This document shows positions 1 to 29,542 of a stretch of 48,906 nt of DNA, piece after piece; the stretch's first letter is position 1; each line of letters begins with the position of its first letter. A model generated the notes under the pieces. It was given only the letters and a program-made list of their open reading frames with translations, was not told the DNA's origin and searched no databases. The translations under genes and the position numbers were made by a program. This DNA comes from a virus, in IMG/VR virus record IMGVR_UViG_3300017605_000108, positions 1 to 48,906 of that record; one strand, given 5' to 3'.

Positions 1-141
1 ATTCGTTTAGTTCTTGACTCTACTTCTACAGCAGTTGCTATCTGCACAAATGGCACCGCTAATAACTGGCAGCGTCTACTTGTTCGTAGCACAACACAAG
101 CTCCTGCCGCTGGTGATGATTTATACATTGCACAAACATTA
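1..141. repeat. Left copy of terminal overlap (circular assembly)
   Basis: These 141 bases are identical to 48766-48906. The repeat lies inside an open reading frame that stays in phase across the join. It is therefore most simply the overlap left by an assembler closing a circular or circularly permuted genome, not a biological terminal repeat. 141 is also a common assembler k-mer length. The non-redundant genome is 48,765 bp. Confidence 0.95.
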
Positions 142-3157: not shown

Positions 3158-3839
3158 GCAGGCACAACCACAGCCCATTATTATGGGTGGTGATGATGGC
3201 AGTGGTGGTGGCGGAGGTGGTAGCAGCTATAGTAGCACTACTAACTCTTGGGAGTCTGGTGCTCCTATATCATTCTCTGGATTCCAAGACTTCTCTAAGA
3301 CTGGTGGATTCAGTGCCGCTGACCTTGCTAACATAAGAGCTAGAGCTGTAAGTCCAGTTCGAGCTGCATATCAGAATGCACAGCAAAATGTAAATCGCCA
3401 AAGGTCACTACAAGGTGGTTATTCACCTGGCTTTGGTGTATTACAAGCTAGAATGCAAAGACAGCAGGGGCAGGGAATTAGTGATGCTGCTACCAATGCT
3501 GAAGCCAGCATCGCTGAAATGGTGCAACAAGGGAAATTAGCTGGCTTACAAGGAATGGCTGGCACTGAAGGAAGAACATCTGGTTCTACTACTTCTGGTG
3601 GTAGTTCAGGTGGAGGTGGTGGAGGTGGTGGTAGTGCAGCAGATAAACTACCATTAGCTCTAGTTCCTGAGAAGAAAAAGAGTTGGTGGCAGAAGCTAGG
3701 AACTGGACTAAAGAAGGCTGGTCAGATAGCGTTACCAATAGCGGCTGGTGCATTCACTGGTGGATTAAGCACTGCCGCTGCTGCTGGATTAAGTGGTGCT
3801 GGCGCAAAAATTGGTAAGAAGATTGTAGGCGGTCTATAA
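3135..3839 (+). CDS. Glycine-rich virion protein with C-terminal membrane-active segment (putative ejection protein)
   Basis: The start is placed at 3135 because GGAG at 3125-3128 lies 6 bases upstream; an earlier in-frame codon at 3111 lacks this. The 234-residue product has two poly-Gly linkers, a middle rich in Q, A and R, and a C-terminus with a basic KKSWWQKLGTGLKKAG stretch. That is followed by a glycine/alanine hydrophobic tract that could insert in membrane. Small internal virion or ejection proteins of podoviruses have this character. It overlaps the previous gene by 23 bases and is directly followed by two larger candidate ejection proteins. Confidence 0.55.
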   Translation: MGKPKQPEQAQPQPIIMGGDDGSGGGGGGSSYSSTTNSWESGAPISFSGFQDFSKTGGFSAADLANIRARAVSPVRAAYQNAQQNVNRQRSLQGGYSPGFGVLQARMQRQQGQGISDAATNAEASIAEMVQQGKLAGLQGMAGTEGRTSGSTTSGGSSGGGGGGGGSAADKLPLALVPEKKKSWWQKLGTGLKKAGQIALPIAAGAFTGGLSTAAAAGLSGAGAKIGKKIVGGL

Positions 3840-8200: not shown

Positions 8201-8448
8201 AGTCCGTAGCAGAGAGATTTTTTACTAATCGTTTGTCTCCTGTTGCCTCTTTTGTTTGGGCTTGGATGGGAAATAGAGAATTCGATGGCAAACCATTTGA
8301 GGTTAAGAGAGCATTGTTTGAGAGGGTCTTCCCTATTGCTGCCAAAGATATTCTTGATATGACAAAGGAAGACCCTGCTCTTGCCGCTACTCTTGCTGTG
8401 CCCACTTTACTTGGATTGAGTGGAACTCAAACATATACTGGACGTTAA
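5242..8448 (+). CDS. Large internal virion / ejection protein (polyvalent-protein-like)
   Basis: About 1068 residues. The start is at ATG 5242, overlapping the previous stop (TGATG); a GTG directly before it is an alternative. The N-terminus has two FDPNEF repeats, a short motif I recognise from large phage virion proteins. A long P/A/E-rich disordered region spans ~190-520. A folded C-terminal half starts around LLTSWDLSAPGRQGKAF and includes an alanine/glycine hydrophobic segment (LFAVAGAGLAVGEMA). The DLSAPGRQG region resembles large polyvalent proteins co-injected by phages. It is the last gene of the late operon and its stop codon overlaps the stop of the convergent gene. Confidence 0.6.
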   Translation: MPQQPAVFDPNEFSGGQAFDPNEFAPKQLQSPVEPSWYDTVASYIPDPVKSTWNFANKPLTDYITDSAGNRIIDPAAAANYYDNPATRSEDEWKIPDWVPFAGGGSLRSLGAGMLEGAGNVVTGLSSPLNLATLGAFKGASSLAETAPTVARRLQITGRSLSAPVALQGGATALNPNASTSERLFSAAQAAGGFAGMAAPTPKAKPVGAGASEGQLPVRQPAAPIEPEMVTPESMPVRPPNQAAPMTPEVLPTEAKAPLPAEGGYTPEVQRQQMLDLVKERMPTTNEGMKTRLEQERRATPGQSPTGVERRAFDPNTLQGLERTPQPEAVQPTNVEQVIKSIPRTGDIEFDNMVSRLQAMRAKAAGEGFTDAEFNAYSDLAIEVRSHPSMPPELNQLWSDIGAASKARGPKFQVGDQVQKRTPTQATSRPTLVEPQSEMQFVDPNTGEIKVATEAKPGDVPFIPEAPPNAEAPMPVRRAGKRMGQPNLGLSKPPAQLRGTVNETPKLPRDLAGAKPRFNAGTQFYNPQFADDLDKALYIIAQTRKSASDAKYLKFVMDNTGLDEAGARALGQEVKTAIKAQAKNSPGGDIQIPQIARKKLGAIEQTASPTETPAPGEVRGYIQGKPQVSTGEVNPANVKPDAATEVIESLNRRLDKAIEEPNPTTAPKELSEIAKESAGIKEPGIIRKVLAANKALLTSWDLSAPGRQGKAFMFNKAYWTSLDDMVKAWGSKAAADTIHQSILDHPSGYFKEGITDAGKKIPSFAEKMGLDLAANEEMFTQSLGKGFEKYSGVGKANRAHTAFLNKLRSDQFVSMMDAAKKAGMNPETDTRIARAYAKFINDATGRGSLHIGDWKLENNTRMINDVFFAPRNMAGQIRTWNNVLNPVKYWNYDPVLRQQALKSLFAVAGAGLAVGEMARMAGAKVSNDPTSSDFRKIKIGDVRIDLFGGYQQFPVAAAKLLMGESTSTTSGKTTDLTASRFGQQTRQSVAERFFTNRLSPVASFVWAWMGNREFDGKPFEVKRALFERVFPIAAKDILDMTKEDPALAATLAVPTLLGLSGTQTYTGR

Positions 8449-8672
8449 TCTCCTTCTATAACGCTTACGTTTCTAGCTCGTGGACCCTTGACTGTTTTAT
8501 TTGGCTCGAATGTGACTTTAACCTTATTGCCTCCTATTCTATTAAAATCAGATACAAGGTCATCCCAATCACTTATCATGTCTGTCATATGAAAGAAATA
8601 CTCTTGTCCATTATCAGAAGATATAAATCCAAACTTCTTTGCAGTTACAATGTTACTCACTTTCCCGACCAT
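8445..8672 (-). CDS. Cold-shock-domain-like nucleic-acid-binding protein
   Basis: The 75-residue start MVGKVSNIVTAKKFGFISS matches the beta-strand pattern of cold-shock domains (G-x-V-x-x-x-x-x-x-x-F-G-F-I). It is followed by EYFFHMTDM in place of the usual D-I/V-F-V-H. The chosen ATG has GAGGGA nine bases upstream; a longer reading from 8771 lacks a site and overlaps another gene. Such proteins bind single-stranded RNA or DNA and act as chaperones. It is the last gene of the leftward operon. Its TAA overlaps the TAA of the convergent late operon. Confidence 0.75.
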   Translation of the reverse strand: MVGKVSNIVTAKKFGFISSDNGQEYFFHMTDMISDWDDLVSDFNRIGGNKVKVTFEPNKTVKGPRARNVSVIEGD

Positions 8673-8676
8673 CGTA

Positions 8677-8850
8677 TTATCCCTCGCTGAATAGTTTCTT
8701 AAGGTCTTCGTTAACATCCTTAACAATTTTTTGATTCTTAATTGCTTCCAATATAGCATAAGCAATTTCAAGTGCTTCTTCTACATTCATATCTTGAAAC
8801 TTATTTCTTATTACTTTGGTTATAATTACTAGCAATTCTGCTTGAGTCAT
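8677..8850 (-). CDS. Small hypothetical protein (57 aa)
   Basis: The frame runs from ATG at 8850 to TAA at 8677 and has a full AGGAGG ribosome site 4 bases upstream. The product (MTQAELLVIITKVIRNKF...) is predicted to be mostly helical with charged faces. It ends four bases before the cold-shock gene start, and its ATG overlaps the preceding stop. The function is unknown. Confidence 0.7.
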   Translation of the reverse strand: MTQAELLVIITKVIRNKFQDMNVEEALEIAYAILEAIKNQKIVKDVNEDLKKLFSEG

Positions 8851-9008
8851 TTAACCTCCTTAATGTTAGTGACATTTATTCTCATCATATCATTTTCAAT
8901 GACAGTCTCAGTTGAACTCTTGACCATCTGCTTAACTATCATATTCTTAACGAATGCTAATATTCCTTCTTCTTTGATAAGGACTGCCATTGTTACTTCT
9001 AGTTTCAT
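8847..9008 (-). CDS. Small hypothetical protein (53 aa)
   Basis: MKLEVTMAVLIKEEG... runs to a stop that overlaps the next gene's start (ATGA). Its own start overlaps the ATPase stop (TAATG), with GGAG upstream in CAAGGAGAAGTA. It is short and mixed alpha/beta with an amphipathic C-terminus. Tight coupling on both sides supports it as a real gene. The function is unknown. Confidence 0.65.
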   Translation of the reverse strand: MKLEVTMAVLIKEEGILAFVKNMIVKQMVKSSTETVIENDMMRINVTNIKEVK

Positions 9009-10243
9009 TACTTCTCCTTGTCTTTAAGATATTTCAGATACTGTTCTAGCGGCTCTCCTGCCAAGCTCACTTCCCAATCAAGGTTAGCTCCAACTCCAAT
9101 CTTAACTTTCTTTATCCATCCCATCTCTGTTAGGTTCTCCATAATTTGATCTAAAGTAAATGTATTGTAGACTCCATATCCTTTCCACAACAACTGTTTC
9201 CTAGTCAGCTTCTGTCCACTGGCTGCTATGAGATAGTCTAATACTTGTTTGGTAGCAGCGGCTAGTGGGTCTGGACCTCTACCTTCAGTTGTTCTCTTAT
9301 TAGCATATACTAATGACGTTACCTTTTCTATTGCAGACTCGATATGATGTTCTGAAATCTCACCATTAAATTCCCATTCAGCTAATGCTAAGCACATAGA
9401 CACTTTTAATACGTGGTCTGGAACTCTGTTGAGAAATCCTGTCTTGTCGTAGGTTTGACTACCCCGCCACTTTCTTCTCCACGTATTAAACAACTGTCTG
9501 GCTTCATCAGAAGGCTTTAGTTGCCCTTTCTTAGTTTGTATCTTACTTAGATGTGGAACATATTTTGGTATTATATACTCGTCAAACTTATCTTCTTTAG
9601 TCTCACCTTCATCTAATAAATCGACGTCGTGACTTCTCTTTTCTTCATATATAATGAGATTTCTGCCAATATACCCGCCCTCAATATTCGCCTGGGGTAT
9701 AGAGTCGTAAAAATGTGCCGGGCTGCTTCCGAACAAAGCTGTGATGTATGGATTCTTGAGCTTTTCAGCACCGTCACCTTTAAGCAAATTGGTCCACTCT
9801 GGATTATAATGTCCATCGTATAAGTCCGTTAATATCGTGAGACTATCAGGGTCTTGGATGATAGCTGTTGACAGTTCTCCATTGATAATGAACCCCCTTG
9901 AATCAGTGATTGGTGCTTTACCTTCAGTTGTCTTAGTCCTCGATAACTCCTGAACTATAGCTTGTATACTGCTTCTCCCTGCAATGACTCTAGTGACGTC
10001 TGCTTTGCTGACTAGCAGCTTAGCCCTGTTAATGGGAAAGCCTTTTCCTAATCCACTCTCACCAAGCAACATTATATACAAGTTAGGCTTATAAATTAAA
10101 TCACCTTTAAGGGTTGTCAGGTGATAGTTGTTTCCAGCAGCGGCACTAATACATGATATGAAACTCCACCACAGCCACGATTCCGGTGTTTCTACATGCG
10201 AGCATTCACTAACAAGGGAGTCCAACCAATTTATTTGGTTCAC
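9008..10243 (-). CDS. P-loop ATPase, DUF3987-like (replicative helicase/primase-associated)
   Basis: The 411-residue protein has a Walker A motif GESGLGKG at 61-68 after a WLWWSFISCISAAAGNN segment. This arrangement is typical of DUF3987/YfjI-type phage ATPases that replace or load a replicative helicase. The C-terminal ~90 residues look like a winged-helix domain (TRKQLLWKGYGVYNTFTLDQIMENL). The start is GTG at 10243, overlapping the upstream stop (GTGA). Its position downstream of the polymerase supports a replication role. The exact helicase or loader function is inferred. Confidence 0.7.
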   Translation of the reverse strand: MNQINWLDSLVSECSHVETPESWLWWSFISCISAAAGNNYHLTTLKGDLIYKPNLYIMLLGESGLGKGFPINRAKLLVSKADVTRVIAGRSSIQAIVQELSRTKTTEGKAPITDSRGFIINGELSTAIIQDPDSLTILTDLYDGHYNPEWTNLLKGDGAEKLKNPYITALFGSSPAHFYDSIPQANIEGGYIGRNLIIYEEKRSHDVDLLDEGETKEDKFDEYIIPKYVPHLSKIQTKKGQLKPSDEARQLFNTWRRKWRGSQTYDKTGFLNRVPDHVLKVSMCLALAEWEFNGEISEHHIESAIEKVTSLVYANKRTTEGRGPDPLAAATKQVLDYLIAASGQKLTRKQLLWKGYGVYNTFTLDQIMENLTEMGWIKKVKIGVGANLDWEVSLAGEPLEQYLKYLKDKEK

Positions 10244-10380
10244 GTCAAGTTTTCCAGCTCCCTCTCAATCCTGCTAATTAAGTTGAATACTAGCTTTTGC
10301 AATTCAAGTGGTATCCAATTACTCCTCAATACGGAGACTATAGCTCTAGCTTCTTCCTCTGATAATGTAATCTGTCTCAT
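10240..10380 (-). CDS. Small hypothetical protein (46 aa)
   Basis: MRQITLSEEEARAIVSVLR... is an all-helical, highly charged peptide. The ATG overlaps the previous stop (ATGA) with AGGAG 1 base upstream of the start, and its own stop overlaps the ATPase GTG. The function is unknown; it could be a small DNA-binding or adaptor peptide. Confidence 0.65.
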   Translation of the reverse strand: MRQITLSEEEARAIVSVLRSNWIPLELQKLVFNLISRIERELENLT

Positions 10381-10598
10381 CTCCTATTTATCCTTCCTCT
10401 TATGTGACCCATTGAGAATAATTTTTCAAATAATATATGTGGCAATTCTGAGGCTGTATCCAGAACTACCACATGGAAGTTCTCTCTACCTTTCAAATCA
10501 TCTATATCTAGAGTAGAGAACCATTCATTATCAGCTAGCTGCTGAGCCGCTGCCCATTTCTTAGCATGACCGTAAGTTCCAGCTAGAATGAATATCAT
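10377..10598 (-). CDS. Small Rossmann-like hypothetical protein (73 aa)
   Basis: The N-terminus MIFILAGTYGHAKKWA has a beta-strand followed by a glycine turn and helix. A second strand (FHVVVLDTA) follows, so the product looks like a minimal Rossmann-type fold. It is followed by a four-base overlap with the next gene. The ribosome site is weak (GGGA). No catalytic motif was recognised. Confidence 0.6.
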   Translation of the reverse strand: MIFILAGTYGHAKKWAAAQQLADNEWFSTLDIDDLKGRENFHVVVLDTASELPHILFEKLFSMGHIRGRINRR

Positions 10599-10617
10599 TT
10601 AAGTAGTTCCCGTCGAT

Positions 10618-10803
10618 TCATCTTATCTTCCCTTTTGCCTTGCAGAGAAGTTCAGTTGTAACTTTCATTAGTCGTCTAGTGTGACGAGCATTATATGGTT
10701 TGTTAAGCATCTTCTCAGCCCAAGCATAGTCATGGCCAATCCATGTTGGATGATAACGCTTATGAGCTGGGTCATAAATTTCTATAATATATTTTACAAT
10801 CAT
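10618..10803 (-). CDS. Small hypothetical protein (61 aa)
   Basis: MIVKYIIEIYDPAHKRYHPTW... is a basic small protein. The start overlaps the upstream stop (ATGA) with GAGGTGAAGGT just before it. No family was recognised. It belongs to the string of tiny early genes between the polymerase and the ATPase. Confidence 0.6.
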   Translation of the reverse strand: MIVKYIIEIYDPAHKRYHPTWIGHDYAWAEKMLNKPYNARHTRRLMKVTTELLCKAKGKIR

Positions 10804-11126
10804 ACCTTCACCTCTATATTAACCTCAACGATTTCTAAATCATCCTTACTTCTACCATCTTCTTTAGTAGATAAATCCTCATCCCATTCGCCATCCCAGC
10901 TATTCTGATGGCCTGATACCTTTCCATTCGGCACAGCATTCCATTGAACTATGGAACCATGAGCCTTCTTTCTGCTAGAAAATAATCTTGGAACTCCTAA
11001 TACTTTCTTACCTAAGTTCTGTAGAGTATCTACCTTAGCTGGATTCCAATGACTATAGCCTCGTGTCCTTCTCAACTCTGGCATGAACTCGCCAGTTGCT
11101 TTGTGCCTAATCATGTAGTAAATCAT
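10800..11126 (-). CDS. Conserved-looking phage hypothetical protein (108 aa)
   Basis: The product begins MIYYMIRHKATGEFMPEL, with RGYSHWNP soon after. I recall this pattern from small early phage proteins of unknown role that open with an IRxKxTGEFMPE strand. A second half with charged residues ends in EVNIEVKV. It starts at a TAATG overlap and ends at an ATGA overlap. No catalytic residues are evident. Confidence 0.6.
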   Translation of the reverse strand: MIYYMIRHKATGEFMPELRRTRGYSHWNPAKVDTLQNLGKKVLGVPRLFSSRKKAHGSIVQWNAVPNGKVSGHQNSWDGEWDEDLSTKEDGRSKDDLEIVEVNIEVKV

Positions 11127-11335
11127 TAGTCAGCATCTCCATCATATCCTCCTGGATTCATATCCATAGGAGGCTCACGTTTGGGTATCTTAGCTTCGAA
11201 TTCTTTAATTACATCACCAATAGATTCTTGTGCTAGCTTTAACAATCTAATTACTTCTACATTGTTATCTTTTTGGGCTGCTTCCTCAGCTTTGTTAGCT
11301 ACCATCAATAGAAAGTCTTTGATTGTTACTTTCAT
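11126..11335 (-). CDS. Small helical hypothetical protein (69 aa)
   Basis: The start is placed at 11335 (MKVTIKDFLLMVANKAEEAA), where the ATG overlaps the upstream stop (ATGA). A longer reading would overlap the neighbour by more than 60 bases. The N-terminal ~45 residues form a helical region, followed by a proline- and acidic-rich tail (KREPPMDMNPGGYDGDAD). The function is unknown. Confidence 0.6.
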   Translation of the reverse strand: MKVTIKDFLLMVANKAEEAAQKDNNVEVIRLLKLAQESIGDVIKEFEAKIPKREPPMDMNPGGYDGDAD

Positions 11336-11742
11336 GGCTTTACTTGCAACTGAATTATTAATGGCATGTGTGGGTCCATTGTTGGAGTGACTCTCCACAT
11401 TGCTCCATATCCATCAATAAATAAGTATTCACCTCTCATATTAAGCATGACTGGTCCACAATTAAGTCCTACCAATTTATAAGTTTGATTATAGAACCAA
11501 TGTCTGAATCTCTTTCTAATATTCATACCTTCACCTCTAAACGGGATATCATCATCGTCTGCTATCTTGTATCTTCTATCTGCTTCATCTGCCATCTTTT
11601 TATGAACTTCAGTAATAAGAAATTCAAACTGTTTCTCTAAAGATTCAGTGCTATCAGCCAAAATTCTATCTAATGACTTGAATAACCCATCTTCCCATCT
11701 GGTTAGAACTAGCTCAAATCTTAACTTTCCTGAACTCAGCAT
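11332..11742 (-). CDS. Hypothetical protein (136 aa) downstream of DNA polymerase
   Basis: The start at 11742 lies 29 bases inside the end of the polymerase gene and has GGAG with 8-base spacing. Residues 1-55 are helical and acidic. Residues 70-136 are beta-rich with several aromatics (RHWFYNQTYKLVGLNCG). No motif was recognised. Overlap with the polymerase indicates co-translation. Confidence 0.6.
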   Translation of the reverse strand: MLSSGKLRFELVLTRWEDGLFKSLDRILADSTESLEKQFEFLITEVHKKMADEADRRYKIADDDDIPFRGEGMNIRKRFRHWFYNQTYKLVGLNCGPVMLNMRGEYLFIDGYGAMWRVTPTMDPHMPLIIQLQVKP

Positions 11743-14215
11743 AGTTCTTCTCCGCTATTTCAAGTTCGCATGGTATCGTTAGCACATAGTTACGTTTTAA
11801 GCTGCAATAAGTGGAGAAGTCAACTGGTGTCTCAAAATGCTTCTTCATTAGTCTACCATATGGCTCCCAGTTATTCTCAGGCACTAGCATCTTAAGGCTA
11901 TCATGGTCCTCAGATACCCACTTGAATTCTACATCGCCATTCAGTTCTTCGTCTATCTTAAGACCGGCACCTTGAACCAAATGAGCTACCGTCCTTTGTG
12001 GGATGTTAGCATACCCCTCTTTGAAAAGCTCCTCATCCATTCGCCCGTTAAATATTCTAACTCCACCAAAGGGGTCAATGAGAGTTCTCGTATTCTGGAG
12101 ACACTCTTGTATATCACGATGGAATCTCCCCCTGATTCGTGGTGACGCTGCATGAAATAAATCAAGCATTTGACCAGCACGCCATTCACTAATTGACATA
12201 GGTATATCAAACTTCTGAGCATCAGTATTAAACTCAACCATAAATCGATTCTTACCCATGTTATAATTACCTGCATGTCTTGTCTTCTTTCCACAGAATC
12301 TCTCCGGTCCATCCTTCTCTAGAATGTCAACGACTGCTATCTTATCTGTTGTCAGAACCAAATTCTTAGTGTATCCAAATATCAGACCAGCCGTTCTCCT
12401 ATGAATATCAACCTTATCAAATGCTTCAAGCAATTCCCAATCTTCAGATAAGACAGCTACTATTCTTGCTTCTGCTTGGCTACTGTCCGCGCTAAGGATA
12501 ACCTTTCCTTTATCGGAAATGAACATCGAACGGATATCCTTTGCCAGTCTCCCATGCTTTGATATCGTATGGAAGGCGAGACCGATTTTCTTAGGTCTAA
12601 CAGGTTTCTTAAGTATACTTGTAGAGCTTCTGCAAGTCTCCGTCGCAGAAATATTGAATGAGGTTTTGCAACGACCGTCGTAATCAGGACAGAAATTGAT
12701 ATATCTACTTTTTTGAGTTCGTATTCTGCGTTCTTCAAGGAGCGCAGTAAGGATTTCTTTCTTTTCTTTTGTTTTAGCATGATTACCTAGCAATGCTACA
12801 ATGGTATCCTCACTAGTTGGATTACGTTTCATTAGTCTGAACTTCATCTCTTTGTAGAGAAGCTCAAACATCTGAGGATACGAGTTGACGTTTACTTCAT
12901 GACCAACTAGCTCTGCTATCCTAGCATGTGGAATCTCAGCTAGCTCAGTGTATTTCTTCTTCAGTTCTTTCTGCCTCTCTAAGTCTACACAGAAGCCTAC
13001 GTTCTCCATCTTTAGATAGAACTTGTGCTTCTTCATCATGTAGTTATAATAATATTCTACGAGCGGCACCTTATAGGTTTCCGCCATCGAGTGTAAGTCA
13101 AGCTCTTGTTCCTCATCAATCTCATGTGTAACACAGCAGTCCCTGCCGTTGTAGTATAGTAACTTGTCAATCTTTTGTTTGCCAAGTCTAAACTCTTTTC
13201 CTTCTTCTTTATAGTATGGCTCTCTAGTCCAGATAGATGACTGAACGTGGAGTTTTTTATCAGGCAATTCGGGAAATATAACTCTCGTCTTGATAAGTGT
13301 GTCACTGATAATATTTGGAGTTTCAAATCTGATGAGGTTAAGTTTGAATTCGTCATATTTAAAGTTCTGGCCAACTAGCTTCAATCTCCTCAGCTGAGTA
13401 TCTATTATTCTCCAGACTTCGTCCATTTCCAGATTGCCCATGTCAGTGAGCTTGTGGTTGCCAATGCTACGAAGTAATGGAATAGAGATGGCATGATGCC
13501 TATTAAATGCGAAACCAATGCAAATAGGAACACAGTTAATAGATTCGATATCAGCAGTCGCCCTATCAAGTTTCTCATATTTGGCAAAGAACCTATACAG
13601 GTCAAGAGAATTGTGGCAGATGTCTATACTTCGTTCTGGCAGGCTAAGAGTTCTAGACTTGGATTCATCTACTGCACGTTGAATGTCATGTTCAATAAGT
13701 TTGATATACGTATACTCTAAACCACCAACCTGTTCTCCGTGGTCATATCTGTTGAACAGAGCGGCAGGATGAATCGTTGGAACTACCTTAGTTATCCCAT
13801 TCTTTGCTAAGAGAATAGAGCCGCGGTAATTTGTTATGGGATATGCATCCTGCTTTTCTACATGCAGTTGCCATCCCATAACGGCACGCATAGCATAACG
13901 ACCAACGGCTAGTATTGCTTTAGGTTTGAATTTGGATATTTCATTTTCCCATAGCAGCTCTGCTTGTTCAGCTAAGTCTACACCTATAAGATGTAGCTTG
14001 CTTATGTCATTCATTGGAGGCTGGTATTTACATACATTGGTAATGTAGCATTCGCTACGTCTAATACCAGCCTTCCCTAAGCAATCATTTAGTATCTCAC
14101 CTGATGGACCACAAAATGGAATACCTTGTTCATGTTCATGCTTACCTGGTGCTTCACCTATAATCATTAAGTCTGGTTCTAATGGTCCTACACCTGATAC
14201 ATATCTATTGGACAT
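11714..14215 (-). CDS. DNA polymerase I family, fused to N-terminal family-4 UDG-like domain
   Basis: The 833-residue protein replicates the phage genome. Residues ~12-170 resemble family-4 uracil-DNA glycosylases: GEAPG at 20-24, QGIPFCGPSG at 30-39 and HPAAL at 149-153. The N-terminal Fe-S cysteine pair of that family is absent. A DEDDy 3'-5' exonuclease follows: D222-x-E224, N284-x-x-x-D288 and Y355-x-x-x-D359. The polymerase palm shows motif A DSSQAEAR at 577-584, an O-helix-like region near 644-654 and motif C with H771-D772, where serine follows instead of the usual glutamate. All metal-binding aspartates are present, so polymerase and proofreading are likely active. Confidence 0.9.
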   Translation of the reverse strand: MSNRYVSGVGPLEPDLMIIGEAPGKHEHEQGIPFCGPSGEILNDCLGKAGIRRSECYITNVCKYQPPMNDISKLHLIGVDLAEQAELLWENEISKFKPKAILAVGRYAMRAVMGWQLHVEKQDAYPITNYRGSILLAKNGITKVVPTIHPAALFNRYDHGEQVGGLEYTYIKLIEHDIQRAVDESKSRTLSLPERSIDICHNSLDLYRFFAKYEKLDRATADIESINCVPICIGFAFNRHHAISIPLLRSIGNHKLTDMGNLEMDEVWRIIDTQLRRLKLVGQNFKYDEFKLNLIRFETPNIISDTLIKTRVIFPELPDKKLHVQSSIWTREPYYKEEGKEFRLGKQKIDKLLYYNGRDCCVTHEIDEEQELDLHSMAETYKVPLVEYYYNYMMKKHKFYLKMENVGFCVDLERQKELKKKYTELAEIPHARIAELVGHEVNVNSYPQMFELLYKEMKFRLMKRNPTSEDTIVALLGNHAKTKEKKEILTALLEERRIRTQKSRYINFCPDYDGRCKTSFNISATETCRSSTSILKKPVRPKKIGLAFHTISKHGRLAKDIRSMFISDKGKVILSADSSQAEARIVAVLSEDWELLEAFDKVDIHRRTAGLIFGYTKNLVLTTDKIAVVDILEKDGPERFCGKKTRHAGNYNMGKNRFMVEFNTDAQKFDIPMSISEWRAGQMLDLFHAASPRIRGRFHRDIQECLQNTRTLIDPFGGVRIFNGRMDEELFKEGYANIPQRTVAHLVQGAGLKIDEELNGDVEFKWVSEDHDSLKMLVPENNWEPYGRLMKKHFETPVDFSTYCSLKRNYVLTIPCELEIAEKNYAEFRKVKI

Positions 14216-23656: not shown

Positions 23657-24295
23657 TTAACCTCCGAATTTGAGACTAGCAGGATTGAATGGCTTCTTAT
23701 CATCTCCGTTTGGTTCTGCTTTCACCTGAACGGCGCTTACTTCATCAGCAGGTTTCTTGTAGAAAGTAACAGTCTTAAGGTTCTTGTCTGTTGCTTTCTT
23801 CTCAAGATTACCAACCATGTCCTTGATAGTAGCCTCATCAATTCCCGCTTTGACTAGCTGTTCACGTATCTTATCCATCTTGGACATACGTTCTTTTCTA
23901 GTCTTGACAACATTGATAGCACTAGATACATCATACGGTGTTTGTGTATCAGTGACTAGCCATTCCTTATTGCTAGTCTTAGCCTTCCTTTCTCGAATTT
24001 CATCGTCTGTAGCAACGAGCCTAGCTTTAGCTTCGAGTGCTATAAGCGACAGCTCATCACGATGCTCTCGTAATTGAATATGGTCCATATCCTTTACAAG
24101 AGGCTTCTGATGATTGTAGAACTTTTTGAAAAGTTCTTCCTGTGGAGTCATCCCCAATTCCTTTGCTGTTAAATAACTCATTACCCAATCAGGACTATTC
24201 TCCGATACTTGCTTGTGCTCTCCGGTAGTCTTAAAAGCGGCACAGTGTTTGTTTGTGCCGCTGTTAAGAATACCACAGTTACAAAGCCAACTCAT
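23657..24295 (-). CDS. Zinc-finger plus coiled-coil early protein
   Basis: The product from ATG 24295 starts MSWLCNCGILNSGTNKHC, a RanBP2-like W-x-C-x-C...C zinc motif. A long charged helical region follows (residues ~60-180), then a disordered tail ending FNPASLKFGG. An ATG 7 codons earlier is an alternative start. The ribosome site is weak. It is the first gene after the structured element 24327-24475, so its expression may be controlled there. The role is unknown; it is followed by a SpoVG-like gene and the SNF2 helicase. Confidence 0.6.
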   Translation of the reverse strand: MSWLCNCGILNSGTNKHCAAFKTTGEHKQVSENSPDWVMSYLTAKELGMTPQEELFKKFYNHQKPLVKDMDHIQLREHRDELSLIALEAKARLVATDDEIRERKAKTSNKEWLVTDTQTPYDVSSAINVVKTRKERMSKMDKIREQLVKAGIDEATIKDMVGNLEKKATDKNLKTVTFYKKPADEVSAVQVKAEPNGDDKKPFNPASLKFGG

Positions 24296-24326
24296 TATAC
24301 TCAATCCACTGCTCATATGTCATATT

Positions 24327-24433
24327 GCATCTCATTGAGTGGCTCATTAGCTGGTTCCAGTCCAAGGCAATTAACCTTTCTTTTCTTATTTTCTGGACCA
24401 GACTTCACTATCCTGAGCCACTCAATCAAATGC
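24327..24433 (-). ncRNA. Long structured RNA element (tall hairpin) in early-operon leader
   Basis: ATTGAGTGGCTCA (24334-24346) and its perfect reverse complement (24414-24426) form a 13-bp stem. An outer GCAT/ATGC pair extends it across a 3x3 internal loop. Inside, CTGGTTCCAG (24351-24360) pairs with CTGGACCAG (24393-24401) with one bulge. The whole ~107-nt element is gene-free and lies 30 bases upstream of the 24295 start on the leftward transcript. It may be a leader regulator, RNase III site or stable small RNA. The strand is assumed from the operon. Confidence 0.55.
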
Positions 24434-24434
24434 A

Positions 24435-24475
24435 GGCCGTTCAACTATTAGTCGCCGGTGAGGAACTGAACGGCC
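24435..24475. repeat. Perfect 9-bp inverted repeat (hairpin)
   Basis: GGCCGTTCA at 24435-24443 and TGAACGGCC at 24467-24475 give a G+C-rich stem with a 23-nt loop, immediately next to the taller hairpin at 24327-24433. There is no T-run on either side, so a classical intrinsic terminator is unlikely. Confidence 0.7.
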
Positions 24476-24517
24476 AAGAAACTCTCATTAGCCAAGTCTA
24501 GGTTTTATTATCTCCCA

Positions 24518-24537
24518 TCACTAGCCTAGCCTAGTGA
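24518..24537. repeat. 7-bp inverted repeat, hairpin after gene 24563-24754
   Basis: TCACTAG (24518-24524) pairs with CTAGTGA (24531-24537) around a 6-base loop. It lies just past the stop of the first leftward gene and could cap or process that transcript. A poly-T tail is absent. Confidence 0.55.
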
Positions 24538-24562
24538 AGCTGGAGTAACTTTAGCGCATGGC

Positions 24563-24754
24563 TTATTCTCCCTTCTTAATCACAAGCTGTGCTAAAGAAT
24601 CTGCTAACTTACTGATTGCCGCTCTCTCTTTTGCAAGTGGCAGTAATTTCTTCTCTAGTTCTTTTCTAGCTTTGCGTCGATTGCGGTGATTACGAGTAGC
24701 ATTCTTCTTCTTTTGAATTTCGTATTGCTCTTTTGATTTGAAGAACTTACTCAT
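24563..24754 (-). CDS. Small highly basic protein (63 aa), first gene of early operon
   Basis: MSKFFKSKEQYEIQKKKNAT... has a central R/K/N-rich stretch (HRNRRKARKELEKK) followed by a helix, typical of small nucleic-acid- or host-binding early proteins. It is the first frame downstream of the promoter at 24905-24933, after a ~145-base leader that contains the iterons. The ribosome site is weak (AAGAG). Confidence 0.55.
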   Translation of the reverse strand: MSKFFKSKEQYEIQKKKNATRNHRNRRKARKELEKKLLPLAKERAAISKLADSLAQLVIKKGE

Positions 24755-24810
24755 ATCTAGCTCTTGAAATTGTGTCCTCTGAAGTAGACACTACAGCTCG
24801 GATGCGGTCG

Positions 24811-24840
24811 GAGCAACTCGGAGCAACTCGGAGCAACTCG
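24811..24840. repeat. Iterons: three tandem 10-bp direct repeats
   Basis: GAGCAACTCG occurs three times in perfect tandem (24811-24820, 24821-24830, 24831-24840). It is flanked by degenerate copies (GCTCG, CGGTCG before; GACGA after). The period of 10 bases, about one helical turn, would place binding sites on one DNA face. This is typical of initiator or regulator binding sites. Confidence 0.85.
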
Positions 24841-24857
24841 GACGACTAGAGCGCACA

Positions 24858-25144
24858 CGTATGGCTGTAAGTCGTTGAAGCGGTTGCACTTCGCCCACAA
24901 CCCCATTATACCACACTCTCTGCCGAAAGTCAACCCCCCTGTCCCCCCCTGCCCCTGTATTTACTACACTGTATCTCTCTTATTCTATTCTAATATATAT
25001 ATTATATATATATAAAAGAACACAAGAGGGAGACGGAACCAGCAAGACCGGGAGGGGGGAGGGGAGGGGTCGTCATTCGATAGAGAGTGTCGAAATCGGC
25101 GAATGACCGGAAGTGATTGAAAATCAACAACTTACAGTCATACG
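24858..25144. repeat. Long-range inverted repeat flanking early promoter and AT tract
   Basis: The 21 bases at 24858-24878 match the reverse complement of 25124-25144 at 19 positions; the arms are 245 bases apart. A second 11-bp inverted pair, AACTCGGACGA (24835-24845) and its complement (25177-25187), lies outside it, so the region has overall dyad symmetry. A smaller 8-bp pair, GTCATTCG/CGAATGAC, is at 25072-25079 and 25100-25107. Confidence 0.8.
24905..24933 (-). promoter_or_regulatory. Early leftward promoter (sigma70-type)
   Basis: On the minus strand TTGACT (24933-24928) is followed by exactly 17 bases and then TATAAT (24910-24905), a near-consensus host sigma70 promoter. Transcription would start near 24898, run through the iterons and read the replication operon from 24754 leftward. 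Confidence 0.85.
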
Positions 25145-25227
25145 GCCATGAGAAAACCTGACGAAACGATACGAGTTCGTCCGAGTTCTAACGACAGCTT
25201 ACGAGATGTTAGCCCCTCAAATTGAGG

Positions 25228-25404
25228 CTAGTCATTAGTAGCAAGGAAGTAGCTTATTGGATAGATAGCCAGAGCCATAGGCTTTCCATACTTCCAAGCC
25301 GCTCGCCAGAACAAAGCGTATCTAAGATACGATTGATAGCCCATGAGATTGTAATGATACCAATACATCTCATACAATCTCTGATGCTCTTCACGATTGG
25401 TCAT
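25228..25404 (-). CDS. Small aromatic-rich hypothetical protein (58 aa)
   Basis: The start at 25404 (MTNREEHQRLYEMYWYHYNL) has AAGGAG 5 bases upstream; a longer reading would lose this site. The protein is unusually rich in Tyr, Trp and Phe. A hydrophobic C-terminus (PMALAIYPISYFLA) may associate with membrane. It stands alone, upstream of the origin-like region. The function is unknown. Confidence 0.65.
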   Translation of the reverse strand: MTNREEHQRLYEMYWYHYNLMGYQSYLRYALFWRAAWKYGKPMALAIYPISYFLATND

Positions 25405-25438
25405 GATTCTCCTTTCTATCAGCGAAGCTGAAGCGGAC

Positions 25439-25483
25439 AGGGAGAGGTTTGCCACTCTAACTTATCGTGGTTATCCTCTCCCT
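25439..25483. repeat. Perfect 9-bp inverted repeat
   Basis: AGGGAGAGG (25439-25447) pairs with CCTCTCCCT (25475-25483), loop 27 bases, upstream of the gene at 25404. It is followed directly by the palindrome AGTCTAGACT (25484-25493) and, further on, CTGTCTAGACAG (25526-25537). Possible operators or transcript-processing hairpins. Confidence 0.7.
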
Positions 25484-25543
25484 AGTCTAGACTCATTCTC
25501 ACTCCAATCTTCTTTCATTGGTTGACTGTCTAGACAGAATTGA

Positions 25544-25624
25544 TTGTTGGCAAGCTGGTGTGCTAACGGGTAATGCACGTTATTCATCACGCCATTCAAC
25601 ATCCTAGGATGCACTCGCCAACAA
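25544..25624. repeat. 8-bp inverted repeat enclosing a 12-bp palindrome
   Basis: TTGTTGGC (25544-25551) pairs with GCCAACAA (25617-25624). Inside lies the perfect palindrome CATCCTAGGATG (25600-25611). The ~80-nt size recalls a tRNA, but no anticodon arm or T-loop can be drawn, so I call it a structured element only. Confidence 0.6.
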
Positions 25625-25664
25625 ACTGTTTAGCAGATGACACTGGAAGTCAGGAGATAAAGGA

Positions 25665-25749
25665 AGAGGCTAACCATATACTGATTAGCCTCTCTGTATG
25701 AAGTAACTTCCGCAAAGCGGAATGAAGACTAGCTTTTTGAATAGAAGCT
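25665..25749. repeat. Cluster of three hairpins downstream of gene 25771-26232
   Basis: AGAGGCTAA/TTAGCCTCT (25665-25673 and 25685-25693, 9 bp), TTCCGC/GCGGAA with an AAA loop (25708-25722) and CTAGCTT/AAGCTAG with a 9-base loop follow one another past the stop of the 153-residue gene. They may terminate or protect its transcript; T-runs are short. Confidence 0.65.
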
Positions 25750-25770
25750 AGAAAACTATGGTTGAGATTG

Positions 25771-26232
25771 TTACGCCGTAGGCGCAGCAGGCTTTGCAAA
25801 CTGCTTCTCAAATCCCGGCTTGATGAGATTGACCGCATCCTCAAGTGATACCTGAGCACCACGAGAGTAATTGCGAACAACCAGTCGAAACTGAGTCTGT
25901 GCTTCCTGCGGCCACGTCAAATCCACGTATTCAGCAAGTGGGTCACTAGCTGCCGTGTAATTGGCGTCATTCACTCCACCAATCAGGAAAGACACCAGAG
26001 AGGGTTCATCCTTTACTCCGGTGACTTCCATGAACTTCTCGATAGTAGGTGGGAGTGTTTCAGGCTTTGACTCGTCGAATGCTTCCCATGAAATGACCAT
26101 GGGATTCTTTCCACGAGTCTGACCAACTCGAATACGAGTTCCAATGCCGGAACGGGAAGCATTGATTTCATCAGCTTCCTTTTGCTTCGCTTCGAGTTCA
26201 ATCTCCTTTGCCGAACGCTCTTCATTACTCAT
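25771..26232 (-). CDS. Hypothetical early protein (153 aa)
   Basis: MSNEERSAKEIELEAKQKEADE starts with an acidic coiled-coil segment of ~30 residues. A compact alpha/beta domain follows (VGQTRGKNPMVISWEAFDES...SLVSFLIGGVNDANYTAASD) and the tail is FAKPAAPTA. AGGAGA lies 6-7 bases upstream of the ATG. It has its own near-consensus promoter (26322-26350) and is followed by hairpins, so it looks monocistronic and strongly expressed. I do not recognise the family. Confidence 0.7.
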   Translation of the reverse strand: MSNEERSAKEIELEAKQKEADEINASRSGIGTRIRVGQTRGKNPMVISWEAFDESKPETLPPTIEKFMEVTGVKDEPSLVSFLIGGVNDANYTAASDPLAEYVDLTWPQEAQTQFRLVVRNYSRGAQVSLEDAVNLIKPGFEKQFAKPAAPTA

Positions 26233-26321
26233 TTAACTATCTCCTAACGTGCCCGGAAGACTCGGCTTTCATGCCAGCTTTCAGGCTTTTGTCCAGTCAG
26301 GTCATCCGACTGGCTGAAACC

Positions 26322-26350
26322 ATTGTATCACACTATCGACTTGCTGTCAA
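26322..26350 (-). promoter_or_regulatory. Leftward promoter for gene 25771-26232
   Basis: On the minus strand TTGACA (26350-26345), 17 bases, then TACAAT (26327-26322). This matches the sigma70 consensus closely. A GCGC-GAAA-GCGC hairpin at ~26351-26362 abuts the -35 box. Confidence 0.85.
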
Positions 26351-26431
26351 GCGCGAAAGCGCAAGACAATACGCTTCAGCCAATCGGAGAACTAACGCTG
26401 ACCACCAGCCATCCGTTGTATCCATTAGCTA

Positions 26432-26495
26432 GATACAGGCTAACAGCACGACCTGTTATTTAATCCATGGTTTACCCATGTATTAACCTGTATTC
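26432..26495. repeat. Nested inverted repeats upstream of promoter
   Basis: GATACAGGCTAACA (26432-26445) is the near reverse complement of 26481-26495 (two mismatches in the core 13). Inside it TAATCCATGG (26461-26470) pairs with CCATGTATTA (26476-26485) at 9 of 10 positions. The outer arms are interrupted on one side by ~15 bases. No gene is present here. The surrounding 26351-26644 holds no ORF I can support. Confidence 0.65.
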
Positions 26496-26644
26496 TAACT
26501 AATATCGTTAACCACAAATAGCCACGATGACTATTGACACAATATCAGATGGCCAGAGGCCAGATTGCTACACCATTCTCTTTTATTGCGTGTCGCGAAA
26601 GACACTTCAGAGACTGGATTTATGCAGCAATAACAATACGTTAG

Positions 26645-26918
26645 ACCGTTATAGACTCAATACACCGGAGCAATTTGAGTTTATCTAGCCAGTGTATCGC
26701 TCTTGACGAATTTGACGCTGGCGAATGCTTGACTCCCGATGCTGCTGAACGATGATATGCAATGCTTCCTCACGGCACATACCACCGCGAGCTAGCACCT
26801 TGATTGCCTGTTGAATAGCTCTGAACTGAGCGAGAGGGAGCGAAATGAGATACATTGCTTGCTCTGAATTGGTCATCTGAATCTCTTTTCTGCTCCGGTC
26901 TATAGAGCCTATAACGGT
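26645..26918. repeat. Mini-gene cassette A: inverted-repeat bracket
   Basis: Arms at 26645-26672 and 26891-26918 are reverse complements at 25 of 28 positions (they share ACCGTTATAG and ACCGGAGCA). They enclose exactly one small gene, with 12 and 14 bases to spare. The left arm can also form a local ACTCAA/TTGAGT hairpin. The right arm can pair by GAGCCTA (26905-26911) with TAGGCTC (26940-26946) in the next bracket. Confidence 0.85.
26685..26876 (-). CDS. Mini-gene A product (63 aa), hypothetical
   Basis: The start at 26876 (MTNSEQAMYLISLPLAQFRA) follows AAGAGA. The product is a helical protein with two amphipathic helices and a very basic, Q/R-rich C-terminus (QQHRESSIRQRQIRQERYTG), suggesting nucleic-acid or protein binding. 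It is bracketed by the 28-bp inverted repeat, with the ribosome site just inside the right arm. Confidence 0.65.
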   Translation of the reverse strand: MTNSEQAMYLISLPLAQFRAIQQAIKVLARGGMCREEALHIIVQQHRESSIRQRQIRQERYTG

Positions 26919-26921
26919 GCG

Positions 26922-27201
26922 ATTGATTGGATACTCTATTAGGCTCACCAAGCTAGAAGTTAAATGCTACTAGCTCTGTTTGGTCGCGTTGATTCCAACG
27001 GATTTGAACATCTCAATCAAATCCAGCTTGTCCTGCGGAGTGAGTGCTTTCAGCTCAGCCACAAACTCCTGAAGTGTCTCATTCGGCAGCATACCGAAAA
27101 ACTGTCGGCAGGCTGCGACGAAAGTCATCTCTTTCAGGTTTTCATTCATTAGCTTGTCCTTTCGGATTAGCTTGATGAGTCTAACAGAGTATCCAATCAA
27201 T
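26922..27201. repeat. Mini-gene cassette B: inverted-repeat bracket
   Basis: Arms at 26922-26955 and 27168-27201 are reverse complements at 31 of 34 positions, including the perfect 16-mer AGAGTATCCAATCAAT. They enclose one gene with 14 and 18 spare bases. The bracket begins 3 bases after cassette A ends and ends 2 bases before cassette C begins. Two of its three mismatches become G-U pairs in the leftward transcript. Confidence 0.88.
26970..27149 (-). CDS. Mini-gene B product (59 aa), conserved-type small phage protein
   Basis: The start at 27149 has AAGGA eight bases upstream. The sequence NLKEMTFVAACRQFFGMLPN and LKALTPQDKLDLIEMF match a small phage protein pattern I recall (TFVxACRxFFGxLPxQTLxxFxxExKxLTxxDxxE), whose role is unknown. 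It is predicted to be fully helical. The gene is enclosed by the 34-bp inverted repeat. Confidence 0.7.
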   Translation of the reverse strand: MNENLKEMTFVAACRQFFGMLPNETLQEFVAELKALTPQDKLDLIEMFKSVGINATKQS

Positions 27202-27203
27202 TT

Positions 27204-27448
27204 GATTATGAGTCTAACGCATGGCTGGAATTGAGTGCTAGACAGAGACTGTTTTGATTAGCTTGTCGTTTGAGACAAGCCGACGAACACGAACGAGATA
27301 AGATTGACTAGCCATTGCCAGCTTGTGTCGTCTTATCTCACGATTGATGCGAGTCACCCTAACGTATTTCACTGGCACTGGTCGATTGTAGAGACTTGAG
27401 ATAAGCATTTTATGTCCTATTCTCCAGCCATCCATTAGACTCATAATC
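27204..27448. repeat. Mini-gene cassette C: inverted-repeat bracket
   Basis: Arms at 27204-27228 and 27424-27448 are reverse complements at 23 of 25 positions (GATTATGAGTCTAA and ATGGCTGG are shared). They enclose one gene with 9 and 15 spare bases. At the B/C boundary AATCAA-T-TTGATT (27195-27207) can form a small alternative hairpin. Confidence 0.85.
27238..27408 (-). CDS. Mini-gene C product (56 aa), basic hypothetical protein
   Basis: The start at 27408 (MLISSLYNRPVPVKYVRVTR) is preferred because AGGA lies seven bases upstream; in-frame ATGs at 27435 and 27444 fall inside the repeat arm. The product is strongly basic (NREIRRHK, VRVRRLVSNDKLIK) and beta/alpha mixed. The function is unknown. 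Confidence 0.6.
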   Translation of the reverse strand: MLISSLYNRPVPVKYVRVTRINREIRRHKLAMASQSYLVRVRRLVSNDKLIKTVSV

Positions 27449-28068
27449 GGTATTGCGCTATCGCCTCTAGCTTCACTGCATGGAATCCCGTATGTTTATC
27501 TTCAGCATATAGCTTTATTGTCACTGCATGTATCCACCGGCTTGCTAGATGGCCTTTTGCTTCATCTCAGGATTACTTACTAGCTCGCAATGTTGCTGTC
27601 TACCGTGCTTGGCTAGACTCAGGGAAGCTAGTTTCGTAATCACGTTACCAGCTTGTCAGGCCGATAATGAGTGTAGGCTACAAGTAGTGCATGGTCTAGC
27701 AGCGATTATCCTACATTCGCCGGTAGTCCACTGGGCTTACTAAGTCTGCCATCAGGCTTCAGATAGGCTCACAGATATACCGTCGCCAGTATACGGCCTA
27801 CTGCCACACTACATTGCATGGTCTTAGCTTACCATTTCTGAAAGGCTAGAGTAGTCCTGCCGATTGCACAGGGGCGTCTCTGCCTTGCGTCGCGTGCGAA
27901 CGAACTTACAGATAGTAGTATAGCATACCGTGTGCCGTGCTTATGTGATACCAACACAATACCTTGTGGTAGGTCAGAAGCATATCCACTCTATATAGTG
28001 TGTCTTATAATAGGGCAAATTCAATTCCATACACTTTCGCTGTTTGTTTGCATCTAATTGCTACGTCA

Positions 28069-28274
28069 TAAGTCCTTTAGAATCAATAGCTTAGCAGTGT
28101 ATGAAGTGTATTCATACATGAATCGTGTAAGAATTACGAATGATACACTGCCGCTCGTATCTGTATGCGTATGATACACCGGCGAGCGGCATGATTTATG
28201 CTTTGTGCAATGCCAAGTGCTTTGTATTAGAGAGTATCCTAAAATAATACACGGCGCTAAGTCCTTTAGAATCA
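28069..28274. repeat. 17-bp direct repeats flanking a structured segment
   Basis: TAAGTCCTTTAGAATCA occurs at 28069-28085 and again at 28258-28274, a period of 189 bases. Between them are GCAGTGTAT/ATACACTGC (28094-28102, 28143-28151) and the tall hairpin 28150-28190. Confidence 0.85.
28150..28190. repeat. 8-bp GC-rich hairpin
   Basis: GCCGCTCG (28150-28157) pairs with CGAGCGGC (28183-28190); the loop continues with TATC/GATA pairing. ATGATACAC occurs on both the 5' side (from 28139) and inside the loop (from 28171). It may act as a terminator for neither strand clearly, since no T-run follows. Confidence 0.7.
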
Positions 28275-28353
28275 TATAGATACGGGGGGTACTAATCCCT
28301 TAGTAGTTACATATCCGTTAGTGGGGGGCGGTGATTAACCACACAAGTCACCT

Positions 28354-28389
28354 ATCAAAACTAACACTAGCCGGTCATCAAAACTAACA
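28354..28389. repeat. Two 13-bp direct repeats upstream of late promoter
   Basis: ATCAAAACTAACA at 28354-28366 and 28377-28389, 23 bases apart (about two helical turns) and 108 bases upstream of the late -35 box. The spacing suggests a pair of regulator binding sites, possibly for an activator of late transcription. Confidence 0.75.
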
Positions 28390-28496
28390 AACTACATACA
28401 ATGGTTCCATACACTCAACAAACTATGAGAGATTCAAAAAATGAAATTTTCACACCATTCATTCAGTTTCGTTAAGGTTTCGCTTCATTTTGCCAC

Positions 28497-28525
28497 TTGA
28501 CAAAGAGCCTCATTTCGGGTATATT
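28497..28525 (+). promoter_or_regulatory. Late rightward promoter (sigma70-type)
   Basis: TTGACA (28497-28502), a 17-base spacer and TATATT (28520-28525). The predicted start is near 28532, 47 bases before the first late gene, which has GAGGGAGA at 28566-28573. This is the only strong plus-strand promoter I can see for the ~28.6-kb late operon. Confidence 0.85.
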
Positions 28526-28578
28526 GGGTTAGGGCCACAGGTCTCTATCTATTCGATTCAATCTAGAGGGAGATAAGA

Positions 28579-28971
28579 ATGATTCTAAGTGATGATGAGA
28601 TACAACAGAGAATTGAGTCTCCTATTAATTTACTTAACCGTTTAAGAACCTCATTAGATAAGACAATCACTCCACAAAGCCCCTGTCTCCCACCGAAAAG
28701 TGCAGATATAATTGAGGACTTAGAAAATAAAATTTCTAATACGCGCACTAAAGCTATTGGTATTCTTAATGCTGCAATGGATGAATTGCGCGTTCGCCTA
28801 CCTGAAGTTCAGAAGCCAGAGCGTTTAGCTGCGATAGCGGCTGAAATGTCTAAGGTTGTAGCTCACCAAGACTCCAAGAATACTGGAGACAAATCACTTT
28901 CACAGATTATTGTTTATGCACCGAAGGTGCAGAATATTGAGAATTATAAAGTAGTTGAAATAGCAGAATAA
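28579..28971 (+). CDS. Putative terminase small subunit
   Basis: The 130-residue helical protein begins MILSDDEIQQRIESPINLLNRL and ends in a beta-strand tail, SQIIVYAPKVQNIENYKVVE, a C-terminal pattern I associate with phage small terminases. It is the first gene of the late operon, two genes before the large terminase. It would recognise the packaging site and recruit the motor. A strong ribosome site precedes it. The role is inferred from position and pattern. Confidence 0.55.
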   Translation: MILSDDEIQQRIESPINLLNRLRTSLDKTITPQSPCLPPKSADIIEDLENKISNTRTKAIGILNAAMDELRVRLPEVQKPERLAAIAAEMSKVVAHQDSKNTGDKSLSQIIVYAPKVQNIENYKVVEIAE

Positions 28972-28978
28972 AAAGTAA

Positions 28979-29542
28979 ATGCCTGAGAAAGTAAAGGAAT
29001 CAGTTCAGCCATCTAGAGGATTCTTATCGAGAATCTTCGGTAGCGAACCTATGACTCCTGAGATACAAGAAGGAGTTAACATAGCTAGAAAAGAGAATCC
29101 TAACATGGCTCCAGTTGAACCATATGGATTCTTTTCTAGATTACTACAGCCTAACGCTCAGGCATACGCCAGTCCTGGTAGAAGTCTCTACGTAAATCCC
29201 ACTCAAATGCAAGGTTTATCTCCACAAGATGTAGCAGATACTTTAACTCACGAACAGCAGCATATAAATCAGATGCAAAATCGTGGGTATGGGCCAGGAA
29301 TGGAACTGCTACATCAAATGTTTGGCAATAATTCAAGGTTGCCTTATGGACAGCGGCCAGATGAAATGGATGCATTTCAAGCTGAGAAGAATCGCCGCTA
29401 TTCGATGGGCAGAACCCAAACTTCAGTGCCATCGTTTACTAATCCTGGTGAGTATTACATTCCACAAGGAGACATTAACTTACCAAATCCTAATAAGCCC
29501 AGACCTAAACCTAGCGTCATAATGCCTAAGACCATGTATTAG
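28979..29542 (+). CDS. Zincin-like (HExxH) virion or packaging-region protein
   Basis: The 187-residue protein has HEQQH at 91-95 (DTLTHEQQHINQMQ), the zinc-binding HExxH signature. Acidic residues at E129 and E136 (RPDEMDAFQAEK) could provide the third ligand, as in gluzincins. The segment before it, SLYVNPTQMQGLSPQDV, is like a substrate-binding strand. Flanks are proline-rich. Sitting between the terminase genes, it could be a maturation protease or a virion-borne peptidase. A purely structural use of the fold is the alternative. Confidence 0.55.
   Translation: MPEKVKESVQPSRGFLSRIFGSEPMTPEIQEGVNIARKENPNMAPVEPYGFFSRLLQPNAQAYASPGRSLYVNPTQMQGLSPQDVADTLTHEQQHINQMQNRGYGPGMELLHQMFGNNSRLPYGQRPDEMDAFQAEKNRRYSMGRTQTSVPSFTNPGEYYIPQGDINLPNPNKPRPKPSVIMPKTMY

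Follow-up and report, generated by a model that had tools for sequence, protein, structure and literature searches.

In the phage genome record analysed here (the window, the whole stretch of 48,906 nucleotides), three mini-genes lie head to tail, each enclosed by its own long inverted repeat, and the same architecture recurs in related phages. The mismatches within the repeat arms and the covariation of the arms between phages indicate that the target of selection is almost certainly the leftward coding-sense RNA rather than the DNA. With moderate confidence, we interpret the tandem stems as sites of RNase III-type processing, which would divide an early transcript into separate, end-paired mini-RNAs.

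The 48.9-kb record encodes a terminase large subunit and carries leftward replication genes and divergent rightward packaging and further genes. An 833-aa protein encoded at 11714-14215 on the minus strand has a uracil-DNA glycosylase domain at residues 8-157 and, further along the same chain, a family A DNA polymerase domain at residues 416-797. A nucleotide search found no DNA-level match to the window among cultured phage records, and a terminase scan of host genomes gave no match and hence no prophage or host. The array has the rightward operon on one side and a conserved leftward 153-aa gene, up153, on the other, the latter with its own sigma-70-like promoter at 26350-26322. The stretch of ~1.1 kb between the array and the rightward operon (27449-28570) has no recognisable gene and no leftward sigma-70 promoter. 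Likewise, in the window and most relatives, no leftward sigma-70-like promoter (at least 10/12) was found from the divergent operon to the array, and a search of the relatives for a common leftward promoter motif upstream of the arrays found none. The features of the locus are as follows.

28579-28971, plus strand: first gene of the divergent rightward operon, 130 aa, locus anchor
27423-27448, minus strand: bracket 3, 5′ arm (RNA sense), pairs with 27204-27229 at 24/26 positions, G·G 9 bp from the loop side
27238-27408, minus strand: mini-gene g3, basic protein of 56 aa; at least nine other relatives have bracketed homologues
27204-27229, minus strand: bracket 3, 3′ arm, pairs with 27423-27448
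27168-27201, minus strand: bracket 2, 5′ arm, 31/34
26970-27149, minus strand: mini-gene g2, 59 aa; homologue in viral contig L001 and match to gp47 of EBPR podovirus 3
26922-26955, minus strand: bracket 2, 3′ arm, pairs with 27168-27201
26891-26918, minus strand: bracket 1, 5′ arm, 25/28, G·G 9 bp from the loop side
26685-26876, minus strand: mini-gene g1, 63 aa; no relative found
26645-26672, minus strand: bracket 1, 3′ arm, pairs with 26891-26918
25771-26232, minus strand: up153, conserved 153-aa gene downstream of the array, locus anchor

Inverted repeats were scanned with Watson-Crick pairs only (blind to G-U) and loops of 30-600 nt, under settings that would accept 16 perfect pairs. The three brackets are the top three inverted repeats in the 48.9 kb, with scores of 20.5, 26.5 and 21, which bears out the head-to-tail arrangement given in a preliminary description of this DNA. 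Five matches in the window score at least 16, compared with 0.1 expected from 20 dinucleotide shuffles (highest shuffle score 17); the other two lie at 24326-24434 and 24858-25144. Arm sizes agree with that description for brackets 1 and 2, whereas the arms of bracket 3 are one pair longer. The gaps between the brackets measure 3 and 2 nt, within the 2-3 bases described, and every bracket encloses a single leftward gene together with its ribosome-binding site; the genes have 63, 59 and 56 codons, against a described range of 56-63. The coordinates leave 8-18 spare bases on each side of the genes, rather than 9-18.

In the predicted folds each bracket forms one closed domain (z = -6.5, -8.1 and -6.5; 0/200 shuffles as stable), and the predicted 901-nt fold of the whole array has the three stems formed simultaneously. 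The duplex energies of the native stems range from -41.7 to -50.0 kcal/mol. Pairing between neighbouring arms, which had been proposed to give alternative folds, does exist but is weak and minor, the best wrong arm pair reaching -18.4 kcal/mol. An outer stem around the whole array is also predicted (26600-26644 with 27449-27500, ATGCAGTGA..CAATAC with GTATTG..TTGCTGCAT); a clear conserved counterpart was not found in the relatives and this stem is therefore not claimed.

Relatives were gathered via the terminase, the 153-aa gene, the first rightward gene and the pattern of the stem core. The G-U-blind scan identified 32 such brackets (class A) at the same locus, the three of the window and the rest in ~17 related uncultured soil-phage genomes. 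Four brackets in a row are present in L120/L121 and L130 and three in L028, as in the window. Two each occur in L032, L059, L140 and L009, and single brackets in L025, L026, L027, L029, L034, L116, L122, L129, L132 and L134. The locus in L140 was assigned by its homologous terminase and neighbouring genes, both anchor genes being not found there. Gaps within the arrays are mostly 2-19 nt, and 51-97 nt in three cases. The arms differ between most brackets of one genome, with near-identical tandem arms in L032 and L140.

Above the threshold, the scan found no class A bracket in one near-complete relative (L033/L044/L112), and in six relatives a g3 homologue lacks a class A bracket. Thus, the stems are dispensable. 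The outcome that the preliminary description named as contrary to its proposal, relatives that keep the genes without complementary arms, is in part observed in these six. A conserved hairpin with a GYAATAA internal loop overlaps, or lies 3′ of, the ends of unbracketed g3 homologues:

L029 6160-6290, GYAATAA-loop hairpin
L033 9715-9850, GYAATAA-loop hairpin
L032 9745-9860, GYAATAA-loop hairpin
L034 9770-9885, GYAATAA-loop hairpin
L024 7240-7340, GYAATAA-loop hairpin
L027 9770-9880, GYAATAA-loop hairpin

A common stretch, GACTCAGGCTGATAAGCGCAGCC...ACGCTGTC, which looks like structured RNA, is located just before the first bracket in L029, L034, L122 and L129 or before the g3 homologue of L033.

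Arms kept alike as DNA would be expected to carry G-U and A-C mismatches equally on the coding strand. A recount of the eight arm mismatches of the window in the coding-sense RNA gave the four G-U previously noted, together with two G·G, one U·U and one A·C. The G-U:A-C ratio is 24:3 in the first 17 brackets (p=5e-5) and 20:1 in a later independent set of 13 brackets (p=2e-5), both p-values treating mismatches as independent, and the bracket pair of L140 adds 3:0. In contrast, an inverted element of another kind in the same phages, used as internal control (class C, described below), shows 18:23 (p=0.53). Similarly, G·G and C·C mismatches number 19 and 0 in class A versus 10 and 10 in the class C control. 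As the brackets are partly of common descent, mismatches and change counts are not fully independent, and the agreement of the two sets together with the class C control is a stronger argument than the p-values. A G-U-permissive scan with matches counted on both strands could not tell the strands apart, since most stems qualify on each of them; the comparison of mismatch types could. Strand-biased deamination was considered as a cause of the G-U excess and rejected, since the RNA strand is A-rich rather than T-rich and the class C control is unbiased. The earlier hint of selection on RNA, taken from G-U mismatches, is thereby substantiated by both sets of counts, by the unbiased control and by covariation.

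Class A stems are 21-34 bp long. Alignment of 23 stem cores at the mismatch showed 98.7% of the cells paired, and changes on both sides at 20 of the 21 pairs, so that the arms do co-vary as pairs in the relatives, a check that had been proposed at the outset. Cells with changes on both sides number 141, compared with 38.7 after shuffling and 10-21 after displacement of the partner by 1-3 columns. The mismatch column holds G·G in 17/23 and U·U in 3/23 of the aligned stems. Of all 32 stems, 19 carry a G·G mismatch at a distance of 7-11 bp from the loop side and none carries C·C; a few stems (L034, L026, L009b) have no internal mismatch. In the typical stem, 7-13 bp separate the mismatch (G·G or U·U) from the loop; the part next to the loop is a GC-rich clamp and the part beyond the mismatch an AU-rich run, with the consensus 5′-UARUA[G]RCUGSCU near the mismatch. 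The outer parts of the stems vary freely yet stay paired. Searches with the Rfam 15 covariance models gave no match at E up to 1 in window 24000-29000, and in the relatives searched none except Pistol, which lies outside the brackets.

The brackets mostly contain one or two mini-genes and sometimes a non-coding RNA, the enclosed units being 83-526 nt long. All coding brackets examined have their genes leftward and never inverted. The commonest content is a small basic protein family that includes g3; it is found in or beside many arrays, and in those of the window, L028 and L120 its place is the bracket closest to the rightward operon. A tblastn search of cultured phages found no member of this family. 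The g2 homologue in L001 is 62% identical and has no bracket around it, and g2 matches gp47 of EBPR podovirus 3 at 40%. No relatives of g1 were found in the scan of viral contigs, and Pfam and PHROG gave no significant match for the small proteins. Contents move between brackets: the gene that stands alone in the L027 bracket is found in second place within the L129 bracket, and in the L025 bracket a g3 homologue is accompanied by a second gene, whereas g3 is alone in its bracket in the window. Of the swaps and inversions for which the preliminary description suggested searching relatives, the former thus occur, whereas no inverted gene was seen.

Some brackets contain no gene. An RNA of 83-86 nt is common to those of L034 and L120c; it starts with GATAATCC and ends with CACGGAATAA, has no match in Rfam and, in its L034 form, is 87.5% identical to a sequence in L132. 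Brackets L120b, L130b and L059b share another non-coding RNA of ~190-220 nt, which starts with TTTACGGATACG.

L120 488-616, L034 9273-9408, L132 1815-1910: conserved small RNA (GATAATCC...CACGGAATAA) in bracket, arms differ between phages
L120 622-877, L130 782-1055, L059 5813-6060: TTTACGGATACG non-coding RNA in brackets, arms differing

As several brackets enclose a conserved non-coding RNA, the stem appears to delimit an RNA unit, coding or not, which points to processing or end protection rather than translation control.

In the reading that we favour, the leftward transcript would be a row of tandem RNA units, the ends of each paired by its own 21-34 bp long-range stem, with the ribosome-binding site located in the loop close to the inner end of the stem. 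The stems would be cut near the mismatch by an endonuclease specific for double strands, in the simplest case the host RNase III, which would release each unit as a separate RNA, and the paired 5′ and 3′ ends would slow exonucleases. One early transcript would then yield independently stable mini-mRNAs and non-coding RNAs, and self-cleaving ribozymes may do related work elsewhere in the transcript of some relatives. A double-stranded transcript stem of about two helical turns is present in the form of the predicted, covarying stems. No stem is shorter than 21 bp, although the scan accepts 16 perfect pairs, which fits a double-strand endonuclease. The packing, with gaps of 2-19 nt in most arrays and brackets that close around the genes, fits separate units.

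The same RNA-level evidence, the G-U asymmetry in two sets and the covariation, would also be produced by stems that are never cut but close and insulate the units as separate folding domains of a polycistronic RNA, shielded from RNases and from interference by neighbours. The folding of the array into adjacent closed domains and, in arrays with distinct arms, native stems far stronger than the cross-pairs suit this alternative, which is a reasonable possibility though a less probable one. Uncut stems alone, however, do not account for a conserved G·G at a fixed distance from the loop or for the stems of non-coding RNAs packed 5-10 nt apart. Processing sites and closed ends, both raised in the preliminary description, are thus strongly supported as RNA-level features, and the sequence is compatible with stems cut and with stems left closed. 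The constraint on sequence as well as pairing near the mismatch would be explained if the stem and its G·G were the binding site of a phage or host RNA-binding protein that controls the enclosed unit, for example an antitermination or translation regulator. The g3 product would be a candidate, as its family is basic and lies in or beside many arrays. We regard such a binding site as unlikely, since the outer parts of the stems vary freely while remaining paired, unrelated genes and non-coding RNAs are enclosed, and the small proteins have no known domain in Pfam or PHROG. A more elaborate form, in which the units of a Pistol-using transcript are excised or capped by stems that a dedicated factor (perhaps g3) recognises, and possibly become closed or circular mini-mRNAs, would be a new RNA architecture and is improbable.

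An explanation at the DNA level, with the arms as recombination or inversion sites or as cassettes kept alike by gene conversion, draws on the movement of gene content between brackets, the L027 gene being the second one in the bracket of L129, and on the near-identical tandem arms of L032 and L140. However, it predicts neither the large excess of G-U over A-C nor G·G without C·C, both in the sense of the coding strand only, and biased deamination is not their cause, the RNA strand being A-rich. The arms are pair-specific and differ between most brackets of one genome, and the genes have a single orientation, so that the earlier suggestion of invertible segments is not supported. That of recombination-exchangeable cassettes is retained at most as a secondary effect, and the DNA-level explanation as a whole is very improbable. 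Chance or an assembly artefact is hardly credible. Nothing was found in its favour; the window has five matches against 0.1 expected, the architecture is present in ~17 independently assembled contigs, and the same scan found no score of at least 15 in HMO-2011 (50 kb), the T7 early region (1-12000), RHph_N3_19 (49 kb) or the EBPR podovirus 3 stretch (9 kb).

The RNase III sites of T7 are local hairpins between genes. RNase III cuts the early polycistronic precursor of T7 at five sites, and this transcript, with small genes of the host-takeover type, is divided into short mRNAs at RNA stems (PMC4858673). The likeness lies in an early transcript of small genes that is split at stems; here distant arms pair around each gene, and T7 1-12000, unlike the array phages, has no bracketing long-range stem by the same scan. 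In ribosomal RNA precursors, a long-range stem pairs the ends of each unit and is cut by a double-strand endonuclease, with tandem units in one transcript. It is RNase III that releases the 16S and 23S rRNA (PMC5371410). The phage arrays resemble these precursors in the long-range stems that pair unit ends and in the tandem units, and would resemble them in cleavage as well; they differ in that the units are mini-mRNAs or non-coding RNAs of 83-526 nt and in the conserved G·G mismatch. The PeSLs of T4-type phages are described as stem-loops between small early genes that are tied to gene shuffling (PMC4503421, citing Arbiol 2010 and Comeau 2014). They consist of a promoter and a hairpin (terminator), whereas here the stem spans the whole gene and no early promoter accompanies it at the sigma-70-like threshold of 10/12 in the window and most relatives. 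In Cluster K mycobacteriophages, the ESAS are imperfect inverted repeats of 17 bp that accompany some of the small non-structural genes (PMC3203893). They lie upstream of the start, nearly always have 4-13 bp spacers and follow one consensus, whereas the arms here are pair-specific and flank the gene.

Strings of separately closed RNA units are known for rRNA, and to our knowledge for no mRNA. We know of no tandem row of mini-genes or non-coding RNAs with their own covarying stems and a conserved G·G mismatch. The layout of tandem self-closed units was not found in the open-access literature searched and is absent from Rfam 15 at these places. This agrees with the initial statement that no described phage system with this exact layout was known. 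The processing stems themselves are of a known kind.

If the favoured processing holds, there would be a phage lineage whose early transcript consists of RNA units strung together and closed one by one. It would then be possible to test how phages provide each tiny orphan gene with a stability and expression of its own, and how such genes are exchanged as RNA-defined modules. The stems with a G·G mismatch make up a family of RNA motifs not described before, for which other viromes can be searched, and they mark many short phage ORFs as real genes.

Two further kinds of inverted repeat occur in these phages. Class B is a stem of 20-31 bp with a non-coding loop of 47-117 nt; in the window it lies upstream of the gene at 23657-24316, and in several relatives upstream of the homologue of that gene. 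Class B stems have the same G-U bias (G-U:A-C of 6:0 and 7:0 in two sets, 13:0 together) and the same internal G·G and U·U mismatches as class A.

Window 24326-24434, minus strand: class B stem, 19/21, 67-nt non-coding loop, upstream of gene 23657-24316
L034 10757-10902, L028 11232-11398, L025 11202-11361, L027 10995-11118: class B
L116 4718-4818, L121 3236-3340, L122 5492-5597, L129 4707-4803, L134 972-1075: class B

Class C consists of long inverted arrays of iteron-like repeats around a centre of 250-340 nt, AT-rich in the window, where it includes a strong sigma-70-like promoter at 24933-24905. As its mismatches have no strand bias, class C is perhaps an origin-like element of replication.

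Window 24858-25144: class C
L014 5599-5998, L044 5389-5788, L116 5260-5660: class C
L121 4503-4920, L129 5317-5751, L136 5649-6134: class C

Pistol self-cleaving ribozymes (RF02679), of which none was found in the window, are present in the leftward transcript near the array region of four relatives, downstream of the 153-aa gene.

L034 10478-10542, plus strand: Pistol, Rfam RF02679
L026 5804-5862, plus strand: Pistol, Rfam RF02679
L129 4979-5046, minus strand: Pistol, Rfam RF02679
L116 5094-5156, minus strand: Pistol, Rfam RF02679
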